Source: Pseudomicrostroma phylloplanum
Lineage: Eukaryota > Basidiomycota > Exobasidiomycetes > Microstromatales
Assembly: GCA_039545275.1 (NCBI GenBank)
Contig: BCHS01000007.1
Location: forward strand, 682,001-746,000
Direction: 5' to 3'
Length of the DNA stretch: 64,000 nt
Part shown: one piece after another, positions 3,787 to 52,363 of the stretch
How positions within the stretch are numbered: the stretch's first letter is position 1
Layout: each line of letters starts with the position of its first letter
The notes under the pieces: model-generated
The model's database searches: none
The model's input: only the letters and a program-made list of their open reading frames with translations
What the model was told of the DNA's origin: nothing
Program-made: the position numbers and the translations under genes

Positions 3787-5417
3787 ATGGCCACATCAGC
3801 TCCCCCACCCGCCGCTGATGCCACAGCACCCGCCGCCGATGCCGCACCCGCCAAGCCTCGCGATCAAGGCAGAGATGGCAAGGTAGCAGACATGGAGTAC
3901 TACGACCTCCTCAAAGTCCCCGCATCCGCCACTGACCTCGAGCTCAAAAAGGCATACCGCAAAGCAGCCATCGTAAACCACCCTGACAAGGGAGGTGATG
4001 AGGAGACGTTCAAGCTCATTGGAGAGGCGTATAGGGTACTCAGCGATAACAATCTGAGGGGAGAGTATGACCGATACGGAAAGAAGAAGCCGACGGATGA
4101 GGTCGGACTCAAGGAGGCAACCGACATGGTGAGTAGTGCGGGCGTTATGAATTCTGAGCATGAGGCTGCAATCTAACACAGTGTCCCCCTCTCTTGCTCC
4201 CCCTTCCCTCTTCCCTTCGCTCACAGTTTGGATCACTCTTCGGTGGAGAGCGCTTCGTAGACTACATTGGTGAAATCTCCCTCATCAAGGACTTTGGCAA
4301 GGCCAGCGAGATCATGATGAGCGAAGAGGAAAAGGCAGAGATGGAACAGCAGCTCAAGGACGAGCACACAAAGGCCCATGCCGGTAGCGATGGTAACGTA
4401 GCAGCCCCAACACCAGCCACTGGAACTACTGAGGCTGGCACTACCCCTGCCGCCTCTGGCGCTTCCGGCGCAACGGCAACGGGAGCAAAGCCGGATGCTA
4501 CGACTGCTGGTCCATCTGGCTCGCATCTCCAAGCCCACGATGGTAAAGCAGGCAAGGCAGCCGCTTCTGGCTCTAAGGCCAACAAGGTCACCCCTGAGCA
4601 GCGGGCGAAGCTAGAAGAGTTCGAAAAGGAGAAGGAAATCGCAGAGGAGAAGCGGATCAAGGATCTCACCGAGAAGCTCAAGGACCGTATCCGCCCCTTC
4701 TGCTCTGCCAAGAACCCCGGAGACAAGGACGACTCGGAGACGCAGCTCTTTGAGAAGAAGATGAGGCAGGAGGCAGAGGACCTTAAGCTCGAGTCCTTTG
4801 GAGTCGAATTGCTCCACGTCATTGGCTCTATCTACCTCACCAAGTCCACCACCTGGATCAAGTCGCAACGTCATCACTTCCTCGGTCTACCTGGATTCTT
4901 CTCCAAGCTGAAAGAGAAGTCGGGCATGGTCAAGGAGACGTGGAACCTGCTGGGGTCGGCAGTGAGCGTGCAGATGAGCATGGAGGATCTAGCCAAGAGG
5001 CAGGAGAAGGGTGAGATTCCCGAAGACGAGCTCAAGCAGCTCGAGATGGAGATGAGCGGGAAGATGCTCTTGGCCACCTGGAGGGGGACTAGGTGGGAGG
5101 TGACGGGTGTGCTGAGAAAAGTCTGCGATAACCTCCTCAACGAAAAGGGAGTCGACAACAAGACGCTCCTCAACCGAGCAAGGGCACTGGCCTTGCTGGG
5201 AAGCATCTACAAGCAAGTCACACCAGACGAGTCGGATGAAGAGCGACGCGAGCTGGAACGTCTGGTGGCAGAAGCGGCGGGGAAGAAGAAGAACAAGGAC
5301 AAGAGTGCCCACGTGCATGGAGCTACCGCAAAGAAGTCTACAGCAGCGTCGGGAGCAGCAGCAAGCGGTACCGCGACACCGGCTGCTGGAGGAGCTGCTG
5401 GGGCTGATGCGAAGTAG
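3787..5417 (+). CDS. J-domain co-chaperone with DnaJ-X domain (Caj1/Djp1 type)
   Basis: Predicted Hsp40 that stimulates an Hsp70 ATPase. Two exons, 3787-4128 and 4227-5417. The intron (4129-4226, GTGAGT/CAG) falls between codons, giving 510 aa. The J domain spans ~37-100 with the catalytic HPD at residues 65-67 and the helix-IV end YDRYG. After the intron comes [19 protein letters not shown], which opens the DnaJ-X region of yeast Caj1 and Djp1. A Gly/Ala/Thr-rich linker and a charged helical segment follow, then the conserved C-terminal part ([19 protein letters not shown]) and a Lys/Ala-rich tail. There is no zinc finger or CTD, so it is a class C/X-type J protein. Yeast relatives act in peroxisomal import and cytosolic folding; which role applies here is unknown. 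Confidence 0.9.
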
Positions 5418-5615: not shown

Positions 5616-5910
5616 TCATCTATCAATCTTCCACGGCCCTTCCTCCCCCGGCCCCTCATATCCTGTCCCTGCGTTTCGGTTCGTCGTGAATATATCTTTG
5701 ATTCTGATTTCGACATTGAAATTGACTTTGGGTGAGTCTAGATGTGAATGGTGGATGACGATTGTTGCCTTGAGAGGGACGCAGGGAGCGAGGCAGCGAG
5801 AGTGGGAGCCATCTCGGCCCTCTGCCCTACGTACCACGGCGAGACTTGTCGAGACATGTCGAGAGGGTCGACTCCAATGAGCTTGCAATGGCACTTCAGA
5901 GGACCGGCTT

Positions 5911-5959
5911 GCGTGCTGCGTGCTGCGTGCTGCGTGCTGCGTGCTGCGTGCTGCGTGCT
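5911..5959. repeat. GCGTGCT minisatellite, 7 copies
   Basis: Seven perfect head-to-tail copies of the 7-mer GCGTGCT. It is intergenic, about 600 bp before the first six-cysteine gene. There are no spacers between units, so it is not a CRISPR-like array. Confidence 0.95.
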
Positions 5960-6561: not shown

Positions 6562-6958
6562 ATGAGAGCCAACATCCTCGGTCTCCTCTTGACCGCCTTG
6601 CCTCTTCTGGCCAGCGGCGCCGCTGTCATCAACCCTCTCGCCGATGTGGAGCTTTCGCGTCGACAAGGGTCCGACATGGACGGATGCTACGCATACCAGT
6701 ACTGCTTGGCAAACGACGATTGCTTCAAGGCGAGTATGGCAGGCAGGCAGGCAGGCGGCGTCGAAGCGTGTACTTTTGGGTGAGCTTGTTGCTGACCAGT
6801 GCAAGCTTTTCCCCCTGTCTATTTGCACGTAATAGGGTTACTGCTACTGCACTAAAGCGCCAGCCGGCTGCAAGGAACCTCCTCCGGGAGATGCCCCTGT
6901 GGGTGCTCCAGGCTGGTACCGCCCACCACCGCCCCCTTCCAAGCCACCCCACCCCTGA
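6562..6958 (+). CDS. small secreted six-cysteine (knottin-like) protein, copy 1
   Basis: Predicted secreted miniprotein of 96 aa; function unknown. Two exons, 6562-6729 and 6836-6958. The 106-nt intron begins GC (AAG|GCGAGT) and ends AG. It sits at exactly the same phase-0 position as the GT-AG introns of copies 2 and 3. Residues 1-20 form a signal peptide. A short pro-region ends in Arg-Arg (33-34), a Kex2-like site, followed by Gln-Gly. The core cysteines are at 42, 48, 54, 59, 61 and 68 (spacing 5-5-4-1-6) and include the motif G-Y-C-Y-C. The tail is Pro-rich (GWYRPPPPP). Copies 2 and 3 share the first-loop residues CYAYQYC (copy 2) and the K|G-x-C-Y-C junction. It resembles an inhibitor cystine knot; an effector or other secreted miniprotein is equally possible. 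Confidence 0.8.
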
Positions 6959-7817
6959 GCGCCTCCTTGGCTGCTCGCATGATGGCCTGCTCGCAGAGCT
7001 CCTTCGCGACTGCAATGAGCAAGCTTGATTGTATAGGGACACTGTTGGAGATGACTTGGCCTCCGTCTAAGGTTGCGATGCGTGTACACAATACTATGCC
7101 CGAATGAATGACATCGTGACCATTGACGACGACCCCTACCGTGAGCATGCTTCGTCCCATTGCACAAGCTCCCTGCGAGACTTTTTCGTGTGCTACAGGT
7201 CGATAGGATCCTCAGAACGAGTAGCCGGAACAGTGTCGTCTGAACATGGGTCACCGCATCTCAGATCGACACCATTCGTCGAGATGGCGTGCTGGTGCTG
7301 CTGTGAGGTATTGTGTGCACGCTCTCGGCAATTGACCTGAGGACAAAGTCAGAGCCAAGCCCCTAGCACAGCATCTGAGTTTACTTCAGGTCCACCTTCG
7401 CCGCTGGACACATGCTCCGCATCTCCTAGGCTAAGTGACGAGGGGAAGAGAGGGGTTGGAGGGCAGACGGAGCACCGAGGAAGCCGGACTTGCTCGCTGC
7501 TCTTTTCGGCGATCTGTACCGGGTGTCTTGGACCACCGACTAGAGCCTTGGCATTTGTTTCTCCAGACCTCAGGAGGCCGCCGCTCCTCCTCAAACCATC
7601 AGTTCCTGAGCCGAAAGAGCGACTCGCTGCCCTGGCCGGCAGCGCGGACCCCGCCCCCGACGACTGGGAGTCCCGAGGCTCCGCATTGCTCCACGCGAGT
7701 AGACCACGTCTGACCCCGGTGTCGTATATAATCATGGCCTACTTGCGCTGCTGCACACTCCCAACATCGTCTCCATCTCCACCCACAAATTCACCCATAC
7801 AACACAACAAAGTCAAC
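6959..7817. other. intergenic region between copies 1 and 2
   Basis: No further gene is supported. The last ~90 bp hold the TATA box and A/C-rich 5' leader of copy 2. Confidence 0.5.
7725..7732 (+). promoter_or_regulatory. TATA box of six-cysteine copy 2
   Basis: TATATAAT lies 93 bp upstream of the copy 2 ATG and is followed by an A/C-rich leader. Confidence 0.6.
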
Positions 7818-8224
7818 ATGCGCTTCTCTGTCTTTGCACTCCTGCTCTCCGCCATGCCTCTCTTGGCCATGGGCGCTACCGTAGGCCCAATGTCCGACCT
7901 TGGTGAGTATGCCGACCCTCATGAGGCACAGTCGCTTTCTCTGACAGAATCTTCATCTTCTCTTGGCCATTCGAAAGTCGAACTCGAGCTCACTCCGCGA
8001 CAGGGCGTTGATCCCTCGGGTTGCTATGCATACCAGTACTGCGATCCGCGAGAGACGGACTGCTACAAGGTAAGAGCACGAATCTGTCGCATGGCAGGTC
8101 TTTGACCAGAGTTGACGCTGATGAACGAGCACAATACCTACCTCTTGCTGGGCGATGCATTCTTCAAATCTCACAGGGAATGTGCTATTGCAATAAGCGC
8201 AACCCCAACCTGCCTCAATGCTAG
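7818..8224 (+). CDS. small secreted six-cysteine (knottin-like) protein, copy 2
   Basis: Secreted miniprotein of unknown function. The certain structure is exon 7818-8069, intron 8070-8176 (GTAAGA/CAG, phase 0), exon 8177-8224, giving 99 aa. A second possible intron, 7903-7947, has GTGAGT at its start and a pyrimidine-rich tract before CAG. It is 45 nt and in frame, so the message could also give 84 aa. Its phase-1 position matches the intron of copies 4 and 5. There is a signal peptide (1-19), a Ser-rich pro-region and a Pro-Arg|Gln-Gly processing-type site at 60-63. Cysteines (99-aa form) are at 69, 75, 82, 87, 89 and 99, spacing 5-6-4-1-9, ending at the last residue. First loop CYAYQYC is identical to copy 1. 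Confidence 0.8.
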
Positions 8225-8714
8225 ATCTAGCTCCGCCGCTCTTGAGCCCGGTCAATAGCCGACTCGTCTCTTTATGCGAAGCTCGCTGAGCACGTTGTAC
8301 GACGTTGGGTGCGCGCATGAAAACTGCAAGCCCCTTCTGCCATGTCTTCCCTTGTTATCTTGTCCGAATAAAGGTCAGCTCCACTGTGTGTCCTTGTGAA
8401 TGACTGATCGACTGGCAGAAGGATATGGAACCTGAACGACCGAAGTCGATCCGCGCTCCGGTCATTTTGGTCCGTCAAATACCTACGGGGATTTGATTGA
8501 TCTTGCTGTATGCTCTGGCGGGCATACTCCTGATCGGGATCCGTCAGCCCGTCATGTGCGCCCTGACCAATTTCCGGTGCAGCAAGCCAAATCTCTTGCC
8601 CTCTTGCCCTCGGAGACCGCGGTCTTCTGCCGTGGTGTGAGAATTTGCATCGCTTGTCGCTGCATACCTTCAATCCTTGTCTTCCTAAGAATTCAGCACA
8701 TACACCAAGTCATC
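8225..8714. other. intergenic region between copies 2 and 3
   Basis: No gene is supported. The sequence TCGATCCG (near 8450) also occurs upstream of copy 4 (near 9340), a possible shared promoter element. Confidence 0.4.
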
Positions 8715-9048
8715 ATGCGCTGCACCATCTTCGGGTTGTTGCTTCTCGCCTTGCCTCTCGTGGCTCAAGCAGCTGCCATCAATGAGCCAGCTGCTTCTGG
8801 CGAAATCTCTATTCGACAGGATAAGCCGGGCGTCTGCCGCCCTGCTGAACACTGCCACGCTCTGTCGCCTTGCTACAAGGTGATGTGATCATGTCGTACG
8901 ATAGCCTCTCCAATGAACCCGCCGCTGATCGATGCACGTTTTCCCTCCTTCCAACTTGTCGACCACCACAATTCCAAAGGGCATCTGCTACTGCAATCCC
9001 CACTTGGGTCCGTGCAACCCCGGCGCAGGTCTGCAAGACGGCCACTGA
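8715..9048 (+). CDS. small secreted six-cysteine (knottin-like) protein, copy 3
   Basis: Predicted secreted 77-aa protein of unknown function. Exons are 8715-8879 and 8980-9048. The 100-nt intron (GTGATG...AAAG) has weak ends, but its phase-0 position equals that of copies 1 and 2 and restores the cysteine frame. Signal peptide ~1-20, then a short pro-region ending Ile-Arg|Gln-Asp at residues 33-36. Core cysteines are at 41, 47, 53, 58, 60 and 67, spacing 5-5-4-1-6, identical to copy 1. The G-I-C-Y-C motif follows the intron. A Gly-rich tail (NPGAGLQDGH) closes the protein. Loop residues differ strongly from copies 1 and 2 while spacing is kept, as expected of fast-evolving disulfide proteins. 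Confidence 0.75.
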
Positions 9049-9430
9049 GTACTCACACGCTTCAGTCCTCGAGCTCCACGCATACCAGACGTCAGCGGAG
9101 ACCGTCTTTCTACTATTGCTTCGAAAGCGCTCGATCCCTTCTCATGCTGTAGGAGGCAAAATATCTGGGCACACTGCTTCCCTGACAATGACATTGTGAT
9201 TTTCTCTTTCCCTGCGGCCTTGTGTGAGCATTGCATGTCTGCAAACGGGACGGTCCGCTGTGCTTGAGAGGGTTTCGTTGAGCTTCATCGCCCGCTCGAA
9301 CAGCAGCGATGGAGTCGGGCTGAGCGGACCGTCGGAATCGATCCGGCACAGCCCCCCCCCCCCCACGTCCGCCGGGCCTGTTTGAGCCCATCTCCGGACC
9401 TGCATCATACTCGCGCCCGCGTTCCTGCAT

Positions 9431-9491
9431 GCGCAATCCAGCACAAGGTACCTCGCTTCGGCTGTCGGCCAGCTCTGCCTCTCCGGTCGCC
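9431..9491 (+). repeat. duplicated upstream segment, copy A (partner 10475-10534)
   Basis: This stretch aligns with 10475-10534, sharing CGCAATCC, AGGTACCT, CGGCT and CTCTGC blocks in the same order and spacing. Both lie upstream of intron-type-II six-cysteine genes, so promoter and gene were probably duplicated together. Confidence 0.7.
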
Positions 9492-9562
9492 AAGCCCCGA
9501 GTGTACTCCGGGAAGGCCGGCTTTCTGCCTGTACGGGGTAAGGGCTAAGCTGAGCTGCTGCC

Positions 9563-9568
9563 TATAAG
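9563..9568 (+). promoter_or_regulatory. TATA box of six-cysteine copy 4
   Basis: TATAAG lies 119 bp before the ATG of copy 4. Confidence 0.5.
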
Positions 9569-9681
9569 TACGGCAGCCTTGGGTCGCTACGGAGGAGTCG
9601 TCAACCCTCACCAGAGCCTCTTCTGCTCTTCGTTCTCTACATCCAATACACCTCGCCAATTCCGAAGCCATTTGGATCACC

Positions 9682-9981
9682 ATGCAGTTCTCGACTTGCA
9701 GCCTATTCTTGCTGAGTACCATGCTCCTGACATCGGTAGCTGCCGTCCCTTCGACTCACGGTGTGTGACAATCTAGATCAATGCGAGACAGTGTACAGCA
9801 GCTAACGCGGTCTATCCGCCTGTTCCACCTCGCCCATGACGACGCAGTGATTACACGTGATGACTGCGACGTCTGCGACCAGAACAGTGGCTGCTGGTCC
9901 GGCCCTTGTATCTGTAATTGGAGGCACTGTCCGCCCTTGAGTGGCGTACCTAAGGAAGTGAAGGCTTTGCAACCCAACTGA
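9682..9981 (+). CDS. small secreted six-cysteine (knottin-like) protein, copy 4
   Basis: Predicted secreted 70-aa protein of unknown function. Exons are 9682-9760 (79 nt) and 9848-9981. The 87-nt intron (GTGTGT/CAG) is in phase 1, just after the signal peptide. Signal peptide ~1-21, then VPSTHVITR, with the processing-type Arg at 30. Core cysteines are at 33, 36, 42, 47, 49 and 54, spacing 2-5-4-1-4, with the G-x-C-I-C motif (GPCIC). An 16-residue tail follows. The first exon has exactly the same length and phase as that of copy 5, so the two are close duplicates. Loop 1 is only two residues, shorter than in classic knottins, so the disulfide fold is inferred. Confidence 0.78.
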
Positions 9982-10691
9982 TGAGCGCAGCCTCGATGCT
10001 GCCCTGCACCTGCCCTGATGGAGTGCTTTCTGCTCAGAGTACAGTGCGAAGGAGAGGCGAGCAGCTTGGTTGGAAGAGCAGAATCTGTGGGCGCTAGACC
10101 TGTTTCAAGTAGTACTTTTGTGGACGCCAGCCACTTGTTGAATCATACTAGAGACACACACTGCATTGGCAGATGACTGTGCGGTTCAGAACGGAGATCA
10201 GCCCGGTTTCCTCTGAACCTCTGACTGGTGTTACGAGGAGTAATGCAGCGCCGAGCAGCAGGTCTGCATTGAGATCTTAGCTCCATGCTCCAAGGTGACA
10301 ATGCCGACCGGATGTGTTCCGTCGATACCGATCGGCCGTGCAGCCACCGGTGCCTGGTGTCCGAGCCGGTGTAAGGACCTGCAGCAACTTCGCGTCCCTT
10401 GGCTAGTTGCGTGACTGATGTTGGTTCATGCCCCTGAGACCAACTCGCGTCCCCGAGGCCGAGTTCGACTTGCTACGCAATCCGTTCAGGTACCTGGCTC
10501 CGGCTTTCGGGAAACTCTGCATGTCCCCGCTGCCGGGTACGCCGGGCAAAACGAGCTGATCCGTTGCTCATGAGAACGCTGGCTTTGAGTGTCCAGTGCT
10601 GATCTTCGAACCTCATCCCAGATTGAAGTCCTACCCAGACTTTGTGCTACATACGCCTCCAAGACACCTTCACACCGACGGCCTGAAGATC
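9982..10691. other. intergenic region between copies 4 and 5
   Basis: No intact gene is seen in 710 bp. It contains the second copy of the duplicated upstream segment. I searched for a decayed sixth copy by the G-x-C-x-C motif and found none convincing. Confidence 0.5.
10475..10534 (+). repeat. duplicated upstream segment, copy B (partner 9431-9491)
   Basis: Partner of 9431-9491, lying ~160-215 bp before the copy 5 ATG. See that entry for the shared blocks. Confidence 0.7.
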
Positions 10692-10946
10692 ATGCACTTC
10701 CAACATTTCAAGCTCTTCCTGCTGAGCGTCGTGCTCGCAGCGACGGCATTTGCTCTCCCCTCCTCCCAAGGTGAGTGACAAGTCTCGACTCAGGTGAAGG
10801 AGCGCGTGCACCTCATCTGACTGCTGGTCTCACCACATGCCAAAGCCGGAGAGCTGTCTACGCGTCTTATTAATTGCGACATTTGCGATGTCAACGGGCC
10901 CTGCTGGGGAGGTTGCGTCTGTGACTCAGACGGACCCCACTGTTAG
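10692..10946 (+). CDS. small secreted six-cysteine (knottin-like) protein, copy 5
   Basis: Predicted secreted 59-aa protein of unknown function. Exons are 10692-10770 (79 nt) and 10846-10946. The 75-nt intron (GTGAGT...AAAG) is in phase 1, as in copy 4. Signal peptide ~1-21, then a pro-region ending Ser-Thr-Arg at residues 31-33. Core cysteines are at 37, 40, 46, 50, 52 and 59 (spacing 2-5-3-1-6), the last being the C-terminal residue. The segment from Cys3 to Cys6, C-WGG-C-V-C-DSDGPH-C, is strikingly like the corresponding part of squash trypsin inhibitors (C-x3-C-x-C-x5-C). This may be convergence. No reactive-site loop can be assigned. Confidence 0.78.
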
Positions 10947-11357
10947 TGAGAGGGCCACCTGCTGTTGCAGCCGTGGCGACCCAGCCAGCGCGTACTTCAT
11001 GGGTTCTTGCTTCCTTTCACGAATTGAGTGAGGCTGCCGGAGACTTTCGAGAGAGAGCAGCCCGAGTCGCACGGCAGTGTTCAAAGCGATACCGGGCGAA
11101 ACACAGTGGCCATTGTAAATATTGTCGGAATAGACTTATGTTCATCGGCACAGGAGTATGGTAGCGAGACGACTCTCGAGTAGAGCCTTTCCCCTCCTCC
11201 ACAAGTGTGAGGACCCAGATTTGCGCTCGCTCGTGTCCCTTTCCGGCCCCCCTTCCGGTCCGGCGACCACCCATATCTTCCCACTTTATCCTCCCTCCGT
11301 CCGAAGCTCAAACCTCCCACCAAGGAGTAGCAGACCCGCCCCCAAGATCGACTCTTG
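10947..11357. other. intergenic region after the six-cysteine array
   Basis: No gene is supported in 411 bp. It holds the copy 5 3' UTR and the YIH1 promoter with a pyrimidine-rich leader. Confidence 0.5.
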
Positions 11358-12788
11358 ATGCTCGTCGATGATCTGATAGCTCAGCTATCAGCCGCAGCCT
11401 GCAGTGCAGAGGTAGATGCGGACCAGTCGAGTTCGTGCCAGGCGCTTGCGGATGAGCTGCTGGCGCTGCAGTCCATCTACGCCCTGGACGATCCGGCAGC
11501 GCTGAAGGTCGTTTTCCTCTACGCCTCGCCTGCAGGAAGTGCTAGTGAAAGTGGTAGACCTCAGAAGGAGCAGCATAAGCAGTCGCTAGCAGAATGGCAG
11601 CCGGGCTGTAAGGTGCGCCTCAGCCTGGACTTACCGCTTGATCTGCCCAATACCCCCTCTGGCTCCTCCTCTACTCCCTCCACCCCTCCCACCTCGATAC
11701 GTCTCTCTATTACACTTCCACCCTCATATCCATCCTCTACTTCTGCACCCCAATTGCAGCTCCTCGACCGCTTCATAGGCGACTACGAAGTCGACTCATC
11801 CCTCTTCGGCCAAGTCCTGCGCACCTTCTTCCACCACAGCGATGCACCAAGCGGCGGCGGGAGCAGGGAAGGAGCAGGCGTGCAGTGGCAGAGCGGAGAT
11901 GTGGTCCTCTTTGAGGGGTGCGAGAGCGTGAAGGAGCGGGTGGAGGGATGGTACAAGGAGCAGAAGAGGCGGGAAGAGGAGAGGAGGAGGAAAGATGGCA
12001 GGGCGGGAGTGGGGGCAGTCGTTGCTTCAGGCGGCGGCAGCGAGATGGCTTCCAACTCGGAGTTCCGAGACGAGGAAGAGAATACGAGTTCAGCCGTTTC
12101 GCGGCCAAGGACTAGCTCGGCGGTGGAAGACCCAGATCTCCGGCGGCTCGTCTCATCCAAGAAGTGGACCTCAACAGCCCCCCTCCTCGAGCGCAAATCC
12201 ACCTTCATAGGGCACGCGACCCGCCTAGACCGGGCAGAGGAAGTGCCTCTCCTGCTGCAGTCTCTTCTGGACCTATACCCAAGGATGGAGAAGGCGACAC
12301 ATCCGCTCATGAGAGCCTGGGTATGTACAGAGGGAGGAGAAGCTGCAGGAGAAGGAGGAGGGGTCGACAAGGGAAGGAAGGTCGTGCATAGGGACTGTGA
12401 TGATGATGGAGAGAGCGCCGCTGGTGGACGCTTGGCCCATCTGCTCGAGATGCTGGTGAGTCTGGCTGATATCGATACTTGCAGGCGTCATTCACTTGCG
12501 GCAAACTCGTTACCTGGACTCGACCTTCTGAACTGCGACGCAGCACCTGGAAAACGCCCTAGTCGTCGTGACGCGCTACTACGGCGGCATCCACCTGGGG
12601 GCAGATCGCTTCAAGGTGAGTAGCTCGAGCGTCGCGGCTTCTCCCTCCCGCTAGCATCAGCTTGAATGACCATGCTCTGACCTCTTACATCCCCCACTAT
12701 GGCGCAGCTAATCAACCGTGTAGCCCGTGATGCACTCGAGGCTGCTGGACTCCTTTCGCAAAGCGGGGCGAAGGGCAGCGGCGGCTAG
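11358..12788 (+). CDS. YIH1: RWD + IMPACT domain protein (YIH1/IMPACT homologue)
   Basis: Predicted inhibitor of Gcn2 activation that competes for Gcn1 in the amino-acid starvation response. Three exons: 11358-12455, 12544-12615 and 12708-12788. Introns 12456-12543 and 12616-12707 are both phase 0 with GTGAG/CAG ends, giving 416 aa. The N-terminus carries an RWD-type segment (LADELLALQSIY, residues ~30-190) with Ser/Thr-rich insertions, then a charged coiled-coil-like Arg/Glu stretch. The C-terminal IMPACT domain starts near residue 275 (LERKSTFIGHA) and ends with the diagnostic VVVTRYYGGIHLGADRFKLI across the last intron. The ATG used is the first in frame after a pyrimidine-rich leader. The protein is longer than yeast Yih1 (258 aa), mainly through linkers. 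Confidence 0.9.
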
Positions 12789-13053: not shown

Positions 13054-16000
13054 CTATCCAGCACCTCTGGGCAGCCAGAAGGCATCGTCGTCCTCATCTC
13101 CCACGAAACGGTCGAGCGTGCCGCCACGCTCGGCGCGTTGAGCGGCATCCTCCTCTGCCTCCTCGTCCGAAGCAGCACCAACACCGGTACGTCTACTACT
13201 TGTGTTCCGCGGGGTCCTCCCAGGGGTTGTCTGCTCCGCAAAGGGATCCTGCGCTGCTGCAGCGGAGCCCATCATCGAAGATGGCAGGCCCGCCTCCTCA
13301 TTCTCCTTCTGATCCCCAGTCGGGCCTCGTGGACGATTCCGAGGTGCAGATGCGCGTGGAGCGCCAGCAGCAGCCGAGAGTGTCTGAGCGCCCGAGTCGT
13401 GTTGACCTGCTGCTGCTGCTGCTGCTGTCCTGCCAGATGGGCCTGGACGTCCAGCAGTAGAGTTAGCGCGGGCGGGCAGAGAGGCGTACTGGGGTGGCAG
13501 TTCTAGCAACTCGCCCTGGTCGGCTCCGTCATCGTCGTCGCTTAGACGGTCGTCCATGAGCATACCGGCGTCCGAGTGGATCATGACATTCCCGCTTCGG
13601 AGGGTTCCGCCGGGAGTGGCAGAGCGAGAGATGCCTCCGCCATTGGAGGAGGAGGCTGGTGAGCGTCGATAGGCTTCAGGGAAGGCCGGAAGAGGAGGAG
13701 CGCCGTCGTCTCGTGAAGATTGACCTCGGCGGGGACGAGGTGCGGCGCCTCTTGACGTGGGCGTGTACAGAGACACATTCGAAGCGCTGTCCCCTCCAAT
13801 TGAAGCGCTGCGATACGGCATGCTCCTGCCAGTGCTGGTGCTTCTGCTAGAGGGTCTGCGGTCGTGCAGTTGCACGTCTTCGTATGTGCCCTCGACGTCT
13901 GCTTCCGGTGTGCCCAGGACGCTCCGATACGCCGAGGCGAGATTCGAAGAGCCGCCTCTAGGCGAGCCGAGACTGCCCCTCTTGCCGTGGAAGGGGTCCG
14001 ATGGGGAAGACGTCGACGGGTTCGTCACGATGAGAGTGTCTCTCTCATCTTGAGCCGATCCGTCCACTCTTGATCTGTTGCTGAAAGGGCCAGGCTGTGT
14101 GCTGTCAGCGCTTCGAAGCGAACCGTCCGAATAAGGCACATCGCCCATGATGGGTCTAGCGGGCGTAGGTGGACTGCTGCTCGGAGTGCCAAGGTCATCG
14201 CGGCTACCGTCGATGCGAGGATCGTACATTGAGCTGCCTAGGCTTCGGAAGGAACCGCGTAGGGACTGGCCCCTCTGGAAAGAGGCACCAGCAGGATCGC
14301 TGCTTCCTGACCCCATGCCGTTACCCAGATTCAGCGTGAGTCCACTACCAGGCCCGCCTTCTCCTCCTTTCTTTCTGCTGCCTTTGGCGATGAATCTCCT
14401 GTCGACAGGCATGCCTTTTGGATAATCGCTGCCGCTCGGCATCTCCCATCGCGTCTCCCGCCTCTTCTCTCGCCGCTTGTAGATGGCAAAGAAGACGAGG
14501 GCAATGAGAATGCCTGCCGCTGCTCCAAGTCCGAGGGCGATGCCGACGATGGAACCGGTGCCGAATCTACCACCTGAGTCAGCGCCAGCCTTGTGTATCA
14601 CTGTGTGAATGGTTGTCACCACGCCTTTGTCTGTGGTGACGATGGCGGTAGTCAAGTCCGGTGTGACTGTCATCGGACCAGCGGTCATGGTTGGAGTGGC
14701 GAGACCAATTGGATTTTCGAGGATACAAGCAGAGCCAGAGTACTAAGGGATGAGAGTAGGGAAAGGGTCAGTGCCTCGAGATCACAGCTTGGCCAGCTTG
14801 ACCACGACTATGCTCCTAGACTCACCTGATCGGACCCTACCAGGTTCTTGCCACCAATTCCTCCACTGCCTCCTGTTCCTCCATCAATCATAGCATACGT
14901 GATGTAGGTGCCAGCAGGGATAGCGACTGTCCAATTCATCCCACCTGTTCCATCCGAATCAAGAATGAGATTCTCCGGAGGACTCAGGAGGACAGGAGGC
15001 CGCTTCTCCGGTAGGATCATGGCCACCAGGGGACCCACGAAGCTAGGACCACTGACGTTCCAGCCCAGCTGCCAAGCTTGACACTGCACTGGCCCACCTG
15101 ACGACCAAGTTTCGAACTCCAGGGGGGTGCTATCCCGAGCGCAAGACGTATTTGCGTTGTCCACAGTGATGAAGGCCGAGGTATTGGCCATGAGCCCAGA
15201 AGAGTCAGTGATGGCAGCATAGACGGTTGGAGTGTTGCCGACGGCTATCGGCCCTGCTTGAAACTGGGGAAGCTCGATCTGATACAGCCACAAGCTGAGA
15301 TCGGGGTCTGCGTAGGATGCAGGAACTGAGGGCGATTACGAATAGACATGCGACGATAGCAAATCAGTCTTTGCAACGTGGTGCACAGCACGCTCCCCTC
15401 TGTAGATACTCACTGCTGACAATCGCAAGAGGGAACCACAGCTCAACAAAGATCGCGAGGGTAAAGGGCGCCGTCCCCTTGGAAGGATCCCACGTTATGT
15501 TCAAAGTGGAACAAGTGGCGGGAGGCGACAAGTTGAGATCCACTCGATGGTCTGCTGTGACATTGTCGGTCCCCTGTCGCTTCTGCAGGGGAGCGATGAA
15601 GTCATTGTAGGTGGCCGGCAAGGCCCTCTTGGACAGCTCTCGAGGAGAGAGGCCGAAGCTGGGGTGTCTCTCCGACGCCAGACCTTGGGCTCTTACCAAA
15701 GACGGGCCCAAGAAAGCCAACGAGGCTGCAATTGTTGCAGCTATTGTGACGAGCATATGAAACAGGGAGGAGCCGCCTCTCGAAGATGCCGCTGTGCGTT
15801 TGTTGGGGCGTCTGCCAATGCGCTCAGAGGACGCCGATGCTGATGATGCTGATGATGATGATGTTGGTGTCAGGGGCGAGGAGAAGCCCCTCAGTGTGTC
15901 ATGTTTGGCCATTGATTCGGCATGAGAGACCGTACTGATCTGCGCGTCCCGGCTGCTTCTCGACCTCTTTGGTGTCCCAGGACGTCCTGTCCACGCAGAA

Positions 16001-46721: not shown

Positions 46722-48971
46722 ATGTTGCCAAAGGTGCCTCTGCTTACCCTCTTGCAGCCAGCCCTGCAATTCACCGCTATCGTCCTCCTCTTCGTCGTCT
46801 TGCTATGTCCCAATCCCTTCACCGAGAGCGGAATGGACCTCATGGTCGTCAGGCCATACAACATCAGCAGCACGAGCACTACTAGCGCTGCGACGAGCAC
46901 CATCGTAGTAAGCGTGACCAATACTTCTACAGCAACGGCTGTGCCCACGAGTAGTACCACGGCCTCGACGATTTCTTCGACTACTACGGCACCGACTGCA
47001 ACCTCGAACAATACGTCTGCCGCCAGCACATCGTCCACCACTCCCACATCCAATGCATCGACAAGCACGACTACCTCCGCAGCTCAGATCGGCCTGACAC
47101 CTGCGACCACCAGCAGTTCGACCGCCTCGTTGGCGCGCAGGGAATACACGCTTCCAAATCTGTCCAATCTCGAGGCCATGTCCAACAGCAGCACATCTTC
47201 CGCTTCTACTACCCTCTACTCGAACCAGGAGTACTCACTCCTTGAGCTCAAGTATGGGCCTCTAGGAGGTTGCTTCCGAGACGCGACCGGCGTTCGGACA
47301 TGCACGCCGGCGAGCATGAGCCCCTCGCTGGCCTCGCTCAATGCCCGCCTGTCGATCGTTGGCCAGCTGTCGACAACGGTTAGTGTCACCGGTCTCCCCT
47401 CAGCATTCAAGATCACACCGATTCTGCTCTTCGTCACTTTTTCGACCCTGTTTCTGCTCTACCTCCTGAGCGTACCTCAACTTCTTCCCCGCTTGTTCCC
47501 CAAGTCTACCAAATTTTCCACCTATCTCAGCCCCGAGTCGCGAGTGCAGCAATACCTCGGAAAGGTGGTCGGACTAGCCGTATACGCTCGTATGGGCTGT
47601 ATAGGTCTCTTGCTGGGCGCTGGCATCAGCTTACGACTCAAAGTCAGCAAGGCGATATACGCCTTCAATGCCGCCAACATCTCCAACGCGATGCCTGCTT
47701 CCCTCACCCTCATCGACTCGGACGATATTGGTATGCAGGCCGTCGTCGGCTCAAGCTTCAGCCTCATCTGGGCCACTGTCGTACTCATCGGCGTCGAGGT
47801 CTATTTGGAGCGAAAACGCATCGCCTCCGAAGCCGCCATCGCCCAGGCTCGCAAGGACATTGAGAGCCAGTACGGCCGAGGCGTCTTCGAGATGCTCGAG
47901 GAAGCTCGCTCGCGCGGGGATCTGAGCGCAAAGGCCGAGTCCATCTATCAGAGCCACGCTCCCTCCATCAAGCCAGCCCGCTCCATCTATGGTGGCTCGG
48001 AGTACGGTTACGGTGCCGACACCAAGGAACGTCCAACGAAGAGTGTGATGCGTGCTGCCTCCTTCAAGTCGACTGGATCATCATACTACAACGGACCACA
48101 ACGCTACCCGTCTTCAGACAAGGAGCTGAGCTACAACGGCACAGGTCCTCCCTCCAGGCGAGTGCAGCTCCATCCTGCCTCTTCACAAGAGTGGCTCGAC
48201 GAGACAGACAAGGGAGCGTACTACGAGCAACCAGGCCCTTTTAGCGGTCCAGGCTGGGCCGACGCTCACCCCTCCCTGGGCCTGCAGCCTCGCTCCCTCT
48301 CTCGCTCTCGCTCCCGCTCCCGCTCCCGTGCCGCATCTCCCACACCCTCCTACTGGACCACGAGCGGCAAAGAGGCCCTCGACGCAAGCACGCTGCATAC
48401 GCTCCCCCCCTCGCGCATGGATAAACGCGGTTCGTACGCAGGCTCCGACGTAGACCCAGAGATGGAGCACCACCTCCCACCTCGCGGACCCTCAGCCCTC
48501 TCCGACTACTCCATCGAGCCTTCCCGCTCCGTCGCAGGGGTGACAGGTGGGCGCAGGCAGCTCCAGACGGGCCACGCAGGCGCGACGACGCACACGCCCT
48601 TTGCGAATCTGCGGCGCAAGCCCTCGTACGGCTCGCGTCTCGCGCGCGGACCCTCCAGCGACGTGCATCAGCAGGATCAGGAGGAAGAAGACGATTCGGA
48701 GGAGTACCTCGACTCTCACCACACTGCAGGCAGTGTAAGTGAGGAGCGTCGTCGTCGTGATCGCGAGCGAGAGGAGCTGGCTGCACTCGAGAGGGAGATT
48801 CTGCAGAGGAGACGGAGGGAACTCGAGTGGCAGATGGGCCGGGATCAGGATCGGGCTGCTGCTGCTGCCGCTAATGCCAGTACACGTAGCAGCACTAGTA
48901 ATGACGACGGAAAGATTGTCGGGCTTGGCAGGCTGGGCTACCGCAAGGCTGTTGATGGTGGTAGGATGTAG
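46722..48971 (+). CDS. SUR7/PalI (Rim9)-family four-helix membrane protein
   Basis: Predicted plasma-membrane protein of the SUR7/PalI group, which acts in eisosomes or in pH sensing. One exon of 749 aa from ATG 46722. The first helix is ~12-30 (ALQFTAIVLLFVVLLC). A long Ser/Thr/Ala-rich extracellular loop (~50-215) carries many N-x-S/T sites and a family-like GGCFRDATGVRTCTP with two cysteines. Three more helices follow: ILLFVTFSTLFLLYLLSV, MGCIGLLLGAGISL and SFSLIWATVVLIGVEVYLE. The cytosolic tail of ~370 residues is Ser/Arg-rich (SRSRSRSRSR) and ends in a coiled coil, RRDREREELAALEREILQ. The tail is much longer than in yeast Sur7 (302 aa). PalI versus SUR7 subtype is undecided. Confidence 0.78.
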   Translation: MLPKVPLLTLLQPALQFTAIVLLFVVLLCPNPFTESGMDLMVVRPYNISSTSTTSAATSTIVVSVTNTSTATAVPTSSTTASTISSTTTAPTATSNNTSAASTSSTTPTSNASTSTTTSAAQIGLTPATTSSSTASLARREYTLPNLSNLEAMSNSSTSSASTTLYSNQEYSLLELKYGPLGGCFRDATGVRTCTPASMSPSLASLNARLSIVGQLSTTVSVTGLPSAFKITPILLFVTFSTLFLLYLLSVPQLLPRLFPKSTKFSTYLSPESRVQQYLGKVVGLAVYARMGCIGLLLGAGISLRLKVSKAIYAFNAANISNAMPASLTLIDSDDIGMQAVVGSSFSLIWATVVLIGVEVYLERKRIASEAAIAQARKDIESQYGRGVFEMLEEARSRGDLSAKAESIYQSHAPSIKPARSIYGGSEYGYGADTKERPTKSVMRAASFKSTGSSYYNGPQRYPSSDKELSYNGTGPPSRRVQLHPASSQEWLDETDKGAYYEQPGPFSGPGWADAHPSLGLQPRSLSRSRSRSRSRAASPTPSYWTTSGKEALDASTLHTLPPSRMDKRGSYAGSDVDPEMEHHLPPRGPSALSDYSIEPSRSVAGVTGGRRQLQTGHAGATTHTPFANLRRKPSYGSRLARGPSSDVHQQDQEEEDDSEEYLDSHHTAGSVSEERRRRDREREELAALEREILQRRRRELEWQMGRDQDRAAAAAANASTRSSTSNDDGKIVGLGRLGYRKAVDGGRM

Positions 48972-50154: not shown

Positions 50155-51140
50155 GGTGAGACTGATGGTGTTGGTGGTGTTGGTGAGGATGGGTACTGTA
50201 GGTAGATGGGGTGAGTAGGAGTAGCAGTTGGTGAGAGATTAGACTTTCGCCTCCTCGGCAGCCGGCCACACGCACACGCACACACGCACGCACAGGCTCA
50301 TGCTCCCCGCCGCGAGCTTGGGCCAAGGCAATCTAGTCCGCCCCACGCCCGAGGCGGTGCGCGCGCCCAAACGTCACGTCACCGCACAGACGAACACCCA
50401 CGCCAAGGCGCTGGCTGGAGAGTCGACTCCTCCGCTTCCGGACGCGACCGGACCGGAGACCGGGGTACCTTGGCTGGCAGTGGGCCTACCGGGCAAGGAA
50501 GAACGTAGAGACGCTGGCTGTAGGCAACAAGGATGCTAGGTGCGGACAATCTGGGTGCCACTTAGCAACTCAGGGGAGCAATAGAGGTACGCGCTGGATG
50601 CCTCGAGGAAGTCGGATCGGGTGCAGAGCTATTGCTGTTGTGATGCGGCGGCGTCTCCTCGGAAAAGGCACCGTTGCTCTATGCCTCTACGCACTCTGCT
50701 CATGGCAACTTGGGACGTTAGGTCGGATCGCGTTGTGAGGCCGCAAGCTTCTCGAGCGTGGTGTGAGGCAACTGCGTGATCGCTGACTCGCGAGATGTGG
50801 CGATTGTTCTCGCAAGAGCTGTCAGGAAGCAAAGGCAAAGGCGACTTCTGGCAAGCAGGCAACCCTTCGAGCGCGACATATCGACTGTACTGTTTGCGTT
50901 GCCGCAACACCAAATGTCAATTGACTTGTTGCCTTTGGCTCACGCATCCAACTTTCGTCCGACTCTTGCAGCGAGGTATATAAGGTGTGGTTTGGCTGCG
51001 TCCGTCACCATGTCACCGACACCCCGCCAACTCCTCCCCTCCCTAGCCACTCCACTCGCCGCGACTCATACTCCCCCGCCCAAGTCGAAGCTCTATCACC
51101 CACACCGATACAACCGCACACACATATATTCTATCCTACC
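50155..51140. promoter_or_regulatory. divergent promoter region, TspO and secreted beta-barrel genes
   Basis: 986 bp between two start codons. TATATAAG at 50977-50984 lies 164 bp before the secreted-protein ATG and is a likely TATA box. No TATA was seen on the TspO side. No gene is supported in between. Confidence 0.6.
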
Positions 51141-52363
51141 ATGCGCTCCATCTCCACCCATGGCTCACGCAGCCATGCCATCCTCTGCCTGGCAGCATTG
51201 CTCAGCCTCTCCCTCTCCCTCACGCTCTGCCAGGCGACACCCCTCCCGCAGCTCCCCAGCGCAGCAGCCGGAGGAGGACCAGGCGGCATGCAAAGCTCTC
51301 CCTACGAGGAGCTCGACCCACTCGCGGCCTATGGAGTCTCACCGCTCCCCGTGCAGCTACAGTCACAGCAGCAACAGCAAGAGCTACAGCAGCAGGAGCT
51401 ACAGCAACAGCAAGGTGTCCCCACCACAGGTCCAACATCCTACATGGCCTCGGTCACACTGCAGCAAGCCGATACCGGCTCCGGCTCTGGCTTCGGCCCT
51501 GCCCCTGGCTCTGGTTCCGACTCCGCTTCCGACTCGGGCATGGGAGCCAACCCTTACGCTCCCCAGTCTATCCCCGGCGCAGGTGATACTCAGCAGGGCG
51601 GCAGCAGCGGCCCCTTCACTCTACTGAGGGAGGCAGTGGATCGAGCTGCGGCGGCTATTGCGGCCGCTTCGGGTGCTGCTGCTCATGCGGCCGTTGTTGA
51701 AGCTGCAGCTGGTGGCGGTGACGGAATGGGTCAAGGCCAGGGTCAGGGTGGCGATGATGAGTCCGGCGCACCTGGCGCACAGGGCGGGCAGGGCGGGCAG
51801 GGTGGTGCCGGTCCTGGCGCTGGAGCAGGCGCAGGTGGAGCACTCGAAGCGACGCAGCGACACAAGCTGGTAAGCTGGACCGACTTCTCCAAGGGCGTCA
51901 CCGCCTGCGGTCAACGTGGAGACCCTTCGTACAACCAGGGGATGTTCCTCGCTGTCGATACGGCGCTTGGGGCTGAGAATGTTTGGTGAGTACGACGAGA
52001 CGTAGTGCATCGTATTGGACGATGCAGGCCGAGAGAAATACTGACGACACCCTCTTCTTCCCCCCCCCTGCCCTTCACGGTCATCCTTGTCATCTCAGTG
52101 GAAAGCAAGTCCTCATCAGTACCAAGAACGGCAAGAGCGCCGTAGGCACAGTCATCGACCTCGGGTGAGTCACATGGTTTCTTTTCTACGGTGGCAGCAC
52201 ATGCACAGACACTATGTCTGAAGCACAAACTGACTCTATGTCCCTCCTTTGTCCTCGAACTGTCAGCGGCACCGATGGCAGCATCATCCTCAGCCCGGCC
52301 CTGTTTGCCCAATTCCACGATCTGGACAAGGGCATATTCCATGCGACATACACCTTCCTTTGA
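51141..52363 (+). CDS. secreted double-psi beta-barrel (RlpA/expansin-like) protein
   Basis: Predicted extracellular or wall-associated protein; fungal relatives include plant-interaction and wall proteins, without proven catalysis. Exons are 51141-51985, 52099-52164 and 52267-52363. Introns of 113 and 102 nt (GTGAGT/CAG, both phase 2) give 335 aa. Signal peptide ~1-31 (AILCLAALLSLSLSLTLCQA). A long low-complexity linker (~35-240) contains Gln runs (QQQQQELQQQELQQQQ), Gly/Ser and Gly/Gln repeats. The barrel is the last ~95 residues: VSWTDFSKGVTACG, MFLAVD, VCGKQVLISTKNGKSAVGTVIDL, SIILSPALFAQF and KGIFHATYTFL. The catalytic-type Asp of D-L is kept, but the Cys pair often following it is absent (GGTDGS). 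Confidence 0.88.

Follow-up and report, generated by a model that had tools for sequence, protein, structure and literature searches.

Knottin-like families are already known in fungi. The rust protein MLP124266, a homolog of AvrP4, forms a knot by nuclear magnetic resonance (PMC6889267), the KNOTTIN 'Fungi1' family is expanded in Histoplasma and its relatives (PMC4503680), and knottin-like proteins have been predicted in Venturia (PMC9632046) and Beauveria (PMC12099005). Here we describe a tandem cluster of five small genes that appear to encode secreted six-cysteine miniproteins in Pseudomicrostroma phylloplanum (Basidiomycota; Exobasidiomycetes; Microstromatales), found in a 64,000-nucleotide (nt) stretch of contig BCHS01000007.1 (positions 682,001 to 746,000 of the forward strand; assembly GCA_039545275.1, 17.08 Mb in 20 contigs), referred to below as the window. 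Like MLP124266/AvrP4, AVR9 of Cladosporium fulvum and the Fungi1 proteins, the products are small and carry a six-cysteine core, and they share with those systems lineage expansion and, probably, the secretion known for many of their members (PMC6889267, PMC4503680). The cysteine numbers of MLP124266 give loops of 4-5-4-2-5, whereas here cysteines IV and V are always separated by one residue, within a G-x-C-[YIV]-C motif, and no sequence match to MLP124266/AvrP4, AVR9 or Fungi1 proteins was found in the searches made. The present family thus appears to be a new addition to a known kind of fungal protein.

In squash trypsin inhibitors and cyclotides, too, a single residue separates cysteines IV and V and the III-IV loop is short; the squash values used here are those of an earlier sequence-only reading of this DNA (hereafter, the original prediction). 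In contrast to them, the fungal peptides lack a basic inhibitory P1 residue, have a two-residue first loop in copies 4 and 5, and show no significant sequence similarity. With regard to genomic arrangement, the mig2 cluster of Ustilago maydis, a fungus of the same subphylum with a compact genome, is likewise made up of paralogs in tandem that encode small, secreted proteins rich in cysteine; its proteins are different, however.

The cluster consists of five intact genes on the + strand, spanning 4.4 kb (6562-10946), as judged by gene models rebuilt from the DNA (Table 1). These models agree with the original prediction in showing five adjacent genes with a signal-peptide-like start, a pro-region, an Arg site and six core cysteines, and they reproduce its coordinates and all five loop series exactly. 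Copies 1-3 are referred to as group A, and copies 4 and 5 as group B. Every mature peptide contains exactly six cysteines (5/5), with an additional Cys within the signal peptide of copies 3 and 4, and the G-x-C-[YIV]-C motif, described earlier as invariant, is present in all five. The precursors are 59-96 amino acids (aa) long and hydrophobic at the N-terminus (Kyte-Doolittle peak mean of 2.17-2.72 over 11 residues). In size, six core Cys and hydrophobic N-terminus, the last judged from hydropathy, they correspond to small secreted cysteine-rich fungal proteins.

The precursors also share a pro-site. An Arg site is found in all five copies, and [LIV]xxR stands immediately before the mature part in 10/10 readable sequences, namely copies 1-5 and the related proteins P0001-P0005 described below, a count in which P0002 nearly duplicates copy 1, and P0005 copy 2, and which leaves aside P0006, as it stops before the site. 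In nine of these ten, Ser or Thr follows the aliphatic residue; copy 4 (VITR) has Ile instead, and [LIV][ST]xR was for this reason rejected as the form common to all copies. The relatives' sites read VGLSIR in P0001, PELSAR in P0003 and VHLSTR in P0004, and are as in copies 1 and 2 for P0002 and P0005, respectively. Gln is the first mature residue in copies 1-3. Kex2-like proteases prefer such sites, and the pro-site could be a Kex2-like cut with an aliphatic P4 and Arg at P1.

The six-cysteine pattern is far above chance. A single-exon scan of the window gave five rows, including copies 4 and 5, compared with one match in total in 20 first-order Markov sequences, and a spliced-pattern scan gave four rows (copies 1, 2 and 3, plus an overlapping alternative in copy 2), compared with none in 20 controls; both patterns were composed after the genes had been seen. 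The other single-exon rows, one at 13764 (+) and two overlapping at 51353 (-), are antisense to longer frames or of low complexity.

There is good evidence from sequence comparison that groups A and B are one family of common origin, because the position of a proposed copy 2 intron, a profile match and a loop test all point in this direction. With hhalign, group A (4 sequences) matched group B (3 rows, two from copy 4) with 96.4% probability and E 1.1e-9, a score that comes from few sequences and to which the signal peptides add. The similarity of the non-cysteine loop residues between the groups exceeds that in 5000 shuffles of group B (p = 0.002). In addition, a phase-1 intron follows first exons of 85, 79 and 79 nt in copies 2 (proposed), 4 and 5, and a phase-0 intron between core Lys and Gly is common to copies 1-3 and absent from copies 4 and 5. 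Copy 2 with both introns would therefore bridge the two groups.

Searches of 5.77 billion proteins (6 hits among 679 candidates, 1 of 1, and 1 of 39) yielded six distinct proteins. P0001, the hypothetical protein BCV69DRAFT_283142 of Microstroma (Pseudomicrostroma) glucosiphilum (Microstromatales), is the ortholog of copy 3; it is annotated as spliced, continues across the splice point precisely as copy 3 is modelled, has the same precursor plan and has no function assigned to it. We take the names Pseudomicrostroma glucosiphilum and M. glucosiphilum to denote the same species. An annotated relative was found in the protein searches for copy 3 only. The remaining five are unspliced frames matching first exons, with P0002 and P0003 corresponding to copy 1, P0005 to copy 2, P0004 to copy 3 and P0006 to copy 5, the last weakly (E 0.047, then 4.7e-4 in another search). 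Their contigs carry the source label 'lgn', which presumably denotes metagenome or read-archive assemblies, and P0002 and P0005, for each of which the longest contig has 2823 bases, may come from the same species as the window, perhaps from one contig. P0004 continues beyond the intron and contains SATAIPTWVRA in another frame, as the window does, so that this relative has retained exon 2 as well. For copy 4, these searches returned no relative. Nor did single-protein searches with copies 1, 3, 4 and 5 find members beyond the cluster in the fungus's own genome, by a method insensitive enough that copies 4 and 5 miss each other.

A pattern for the start of exon 2, run across the same genome, picked up all three group A genes together with two unrelated places, C3:761749 and C2:1174054, which were rejected as they lie inside longer open frames read in another frame (from the look of these frames, one is transporter-like and the other short-chain-dehydrogenase-like). 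A loose exon-2 pattern gave 289 sites against 177 in a control and was not used. Copy 3 and P0001 agree at 24/27 core positions, 14/20 signal-peptide positions and 8/14 pro-region positions; between copy 1 and P0003, CYAYQYCLANDDCFK is identical and the pro-region is different. The cores of copies 1 and 3 thus seem to have been held while the remainder drifts, which would argue for a kept function and not for a fast arms race.

We give an even chance to the explanation that the five genes form one lineage-restricted family of processed miniproteins, group A being most likely inhibitor-cystine-knot (ICK)-like, that serve as stable extracellular ligands or inhibitors. In such a scheme, the precursor would enter the secretory pathway, the core would fold with three disulfides, and a Kex2-like protease would cut after Arg and release a peptide of 26-62 aa. 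The group A core would most likely be an ICK-like scaffold presenting loops 1 and 5, and group B would be a shortened acidic derivative. Outside the cell, the peptides would most likely bind or inhibit a protein of competing organisms or one present on the plant surface, and would not act as cationic membrane disruptors. The net charges of the mature peptides are -1, 0, 0, -2 and -4 in copies 1-5, and this neutral-to-acidic charge argues against cationic membrane killing. With regard to the scaffold, copies 1-3 and P0001 (4/4) fit CX3-7CX3-8CX0-7CX1-4CX4-13C, the ICK consensus (PMC4942781), as well as the somewhat narrower knot spacing given in PMC3210452. Judged by spacing alone, a knot is the likeliest fold of group A.

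Several observations weigh against this explanation. As the original prediction had remarked, loop 1 of copies 4 and 5 is short for a classic knot; at two residues it falls outside the published 3-7 and also fails the narrower spacing, with the remaining four loops fitting the consensus (PMC4942781, PMC3210452). Structure prediction, proposed earlier as a check, gave AlphaFold2 models of P0001 (from 5 rows) and of the copy 4 core (from 2 rows, the second being copy 5) whose mean predicted local distance difference test (pLDDT) scores were 50.5 and 46.9, respectively; no fold could be read from them, and a Foldseek search with the P0001 model returned no chain. Of the claim of a fungal knottin-like family, then, the local expansion and the knottin-range spacing of copies 1-3 stand, and the knot itself does not gain from these low-confidence models. 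Six PDB searches, with single sequences and profiles, gave no significant match but only values of E 0.039-7.2 or none, the proteins named being phospholipase A2, beta-lactamase, the scorpion toxin peptide BmKK4, an SMP-30 family protein, NCOA4, reelin and a squash-type trypsin inhibitor (E 7.2). The phospholipase A2 hits of the six-core PDB profile (E 0.039-0.3) cover the II-VI half only and were taken as chance. Pfam and NCBIfam likewise gave no significant match for the family, in keeping with the original prediction, which knew of no described family with this exact pattern. Finally, the pro-sites are not dibasic in 4/5 copies, that of copy 4 deviates from the commonest form, and the bridging intron of copy 2 is open in frame and possibly unspliced.

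A three-disulfide fold other than a knot, at least in group B, is somewhat unlikely. It might take the form of an EGF/EB-like arrangement (I-III, II-IV, V-VI), of a disulfide-directed hairpin with one further bond, or of a fold of its own. The two-residue loop 1 of copies 4 and 5, below the ICK range, would suit such a fold, as would a Pfam match of copy 3 to the EB module (PF01683; E 0.015, 15.8 bits, below the gathering threshold of 24.3; at E up to 10, two of six cores match, best E 0.011) and a reelin stretch at E 6. However, the EB and reelin matches are insignificant, the spacing of group A is within the ICK range, and the III-IV loop is of 3-4 residues here but much longer in EGF-type domains. 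An identity as squash-type protease inhibitors would be in line with the 5-5-4-1-6 spacing and GxCYC of group A, which resemble the 6-5-3-1-5 and GACIC that the original prediction gave for squash inhibitors. The reactive site of squash trypsin inhibitors is Lys/Arg-Ile, however, and loop 1 (YAYQY, YAYQY, RPAEH, DV and DI in copies 1-5) has no basic P1 followed by Ile or Leu in any copy; the sole squash-type database match, at E 7.2, was absent when the group A profile was searched. We regard this identity as very unlikely, and nothing positive emerged for the earlier suggestion of 'inhibitors', the squash-type Lys/Arg-Ile being absent from the first loop in copies 1-3. It is extremely improbable that some copies are gene-prediction artefacts: the additional intron of copy 2 stays open if unspliced and the searches gave no relative of copy 4 beyond the window, but the pattern is far above the controls, the copy 3 ortholog is annotated as a spliced protein, and conservation is limited to exons in the relatives of copies 1 and 3.

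With respect to function, it is a real possibility, albeit one short of even, that the peptides are plant-directed effectors and their genes a smut-type cluster for small secreted proteins. They are small, cysteine-rich, secreted-looking and in tandem, their relatives were found in this lineage only, and knottin-like effectors or candidates exist in fungi (PMC6889267, PMC9632046). On the other hand, the cores of copies 1 and 3 show conservation, not diversification, among relatives, and Pseudomicrostroma glucosiphilum grew as a yeast only under the conditions of PMC7766764. The share of clustered genes in the secretome of P. glucosiphilum, 29.0%, is the lowest among the species of PMC9816061, a paper in whose main text the word 'knottin' does not appear. 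Among open-licence PMC papers, we found none joining Ustilaginomycotina with knottins, and none on the genome of Microstroma glucosiphilum under that name. A role as antimicrobial peptides against leaf-surface competitors is unlikely; secretion and a pro-region would be compatible with it, and fungal knottin-/defensin-like proteins have been discussed as possible antimicrobials (PMC9632046), yet a mature charge of 0 to -4 is unlike that of the usual cationic kind, copies 4 and 5 being the most acidic.

Within the explanation that we prefer, a processed miniprotein family with an ICK-like group A, a further question is whether copies 4 and 5 are knotted as well. We consider it quite doubtful that they form a true threaded three-disulfide knot of 22-23 residues, with a loop 1 of two residues and a loop 4 of one, that arose within the cluster from an ordinary knottin-like ancestor still represented by copies 1-3. 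If this were true, copies 4 and 5 would be a real variant, with a ring tighter than the loop range of the published consensus allows, and would give a natural series of scaffold shortening; they would extend the limits of the cystine-knot scaffold, with longer-loop paralogs adjacent as comparators. A literature search for the minimum size of a knot ring yielded no published value. Otherwise, the cluster would add a new and tidy family, apparently restricted to this lineage, to the many that fungi have of small secreted proteins, and would be a convenient set for asking what role such peptides play in yeasts related to smuts.

Two of the gene models call for comment. The intron of copy 1 begins with GC, and the read-through residues after its splice point (K/ASMA, the slash marking that point) are identical in P0002 and P0003; the GC donor may thus be conserved across relatives. 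In copy 2, 7903-7977 is probably an additional intron. It is open in frame, and the unspliced precursor would be of 99 aa with the mature peptide unchanged. The original prediction gave copy 2 a long pro-region; with 7903-7977 removed, this region aligns with that of copy 1. The acceptors compared were AG sites giving introns of at least 41 nt. An in-frame intron ending at 7947 (45 nt) was rejected, as the branch-like CTGAC would abut the acceptor, and one ending at 8052 (150 nt, also in frame) was rejected as two core cysteines would be lost. Part of the Pfam, PDB and protein searches used copy 2 as an 84-aa model with the 45-nt intron, in which the core is identical.

Table 1. Features of the miniprotein cluster and its flanking genes, in window coordinates. 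A slash within a core marks the intron position.
Feature	Position	Strand	Details
Left neighbour	4194..5417	+	open frame with DnaJ-X domain; cluster boundary
Copy 1 (group A)	6562..6958	+	exons 6562-6729, 6836-6958; precursor 96 aa; pro-site VELSRR; core CYAYQYCLANDDCFK / GYCYCTKAPAGC; loops 5-5-4-1-6; tail Pro-rich
Copy 1 intron	6730..6835	+	106 nt, phase 0, GC-AG (not GT-AG), branch-like CTGAC
Copy 2 (group A)	7818..8224	+	exons 7818-7902, 7978-8069, 8177-8224; precursor 74 aa; pro-site LELTPR; core CYAYQYCDPRETDCYK / GMCYCNKRNPNLPQC; loops 5-6-4-1-9; last residue Cys
Copy 2 intron 1 (proposed)	7903..7977	+	75 nt, phase 1, GTGAGT...CTGAC...AAAG
Copy 2 intron 2	8070..8176	+	107 nt, phase 0, splitting the core between Lys and Gly
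Copy 3 (group A)	8715..9048	+	exons 8715-8879, 8980-9048; precursor 77 aa; pro-site GEISIR; core CRPAEHCHALSPCYK / GICYCNPHLGPC; loops 5-5-4-1-6
Copy 3 intron	8880..8979	+	100 nt, phase 0; P0001 spliced at same point
Copy 4 (group B)	9682..9981	+	exons 9682-9760, 9848-9981; precursor 70 aa; pro-site THVITR; core CDVCDQNSGCWSGPCICNWRHC; loops 2-5-4-1-4
Copy 4 intron	9761..9847	+	87 nt, phase 1, branch-like CTAAC
Copy 5 (group B)	10692..10946	+	exons 10692-10770, 10846-10946; precursor 59 aa; pro-site GELSTR; core CDICDVNGPCWGGCVCDSDGPHC; loops 2-5-3-1-6; last residue Cys
Copy 5 intron	10771..10845	+	75 nt, phase 1, branch-like CTGAC
Right neighbour	11355..12623	+	open frame; UPF0029 above cut-off, RWD weak and below cut-off; cluster boundary

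A reading of the left neighbour as TIM44 was rejected, its domain match being to DnaJ-X; the right neighbour we take to be IMPACT/YIH1-like. Upstream of the cluster, at 5910-5959, TGCGTGC units form a short tandem repeat, and a run of twelve C lies at 9353-9364, between copies 3 and 4. Elsewhere in the window, 151-2028 holds the C-terminal part (DNA_pol_B, zf-DNA_Pol) of a gene for the catalytic subunit of DNA polymerase alpha, truncated by the window edge. An open frame at 46722-48971 (749 aa) contains a region rich in Ser/Thr as well as several hydrophobic segments, with no Pfam match at 1e-3, and another at 50985-51989, rich in Gln/Gly and of low complexity, has an apparent internal signal peptide and resembles a secreted protein.

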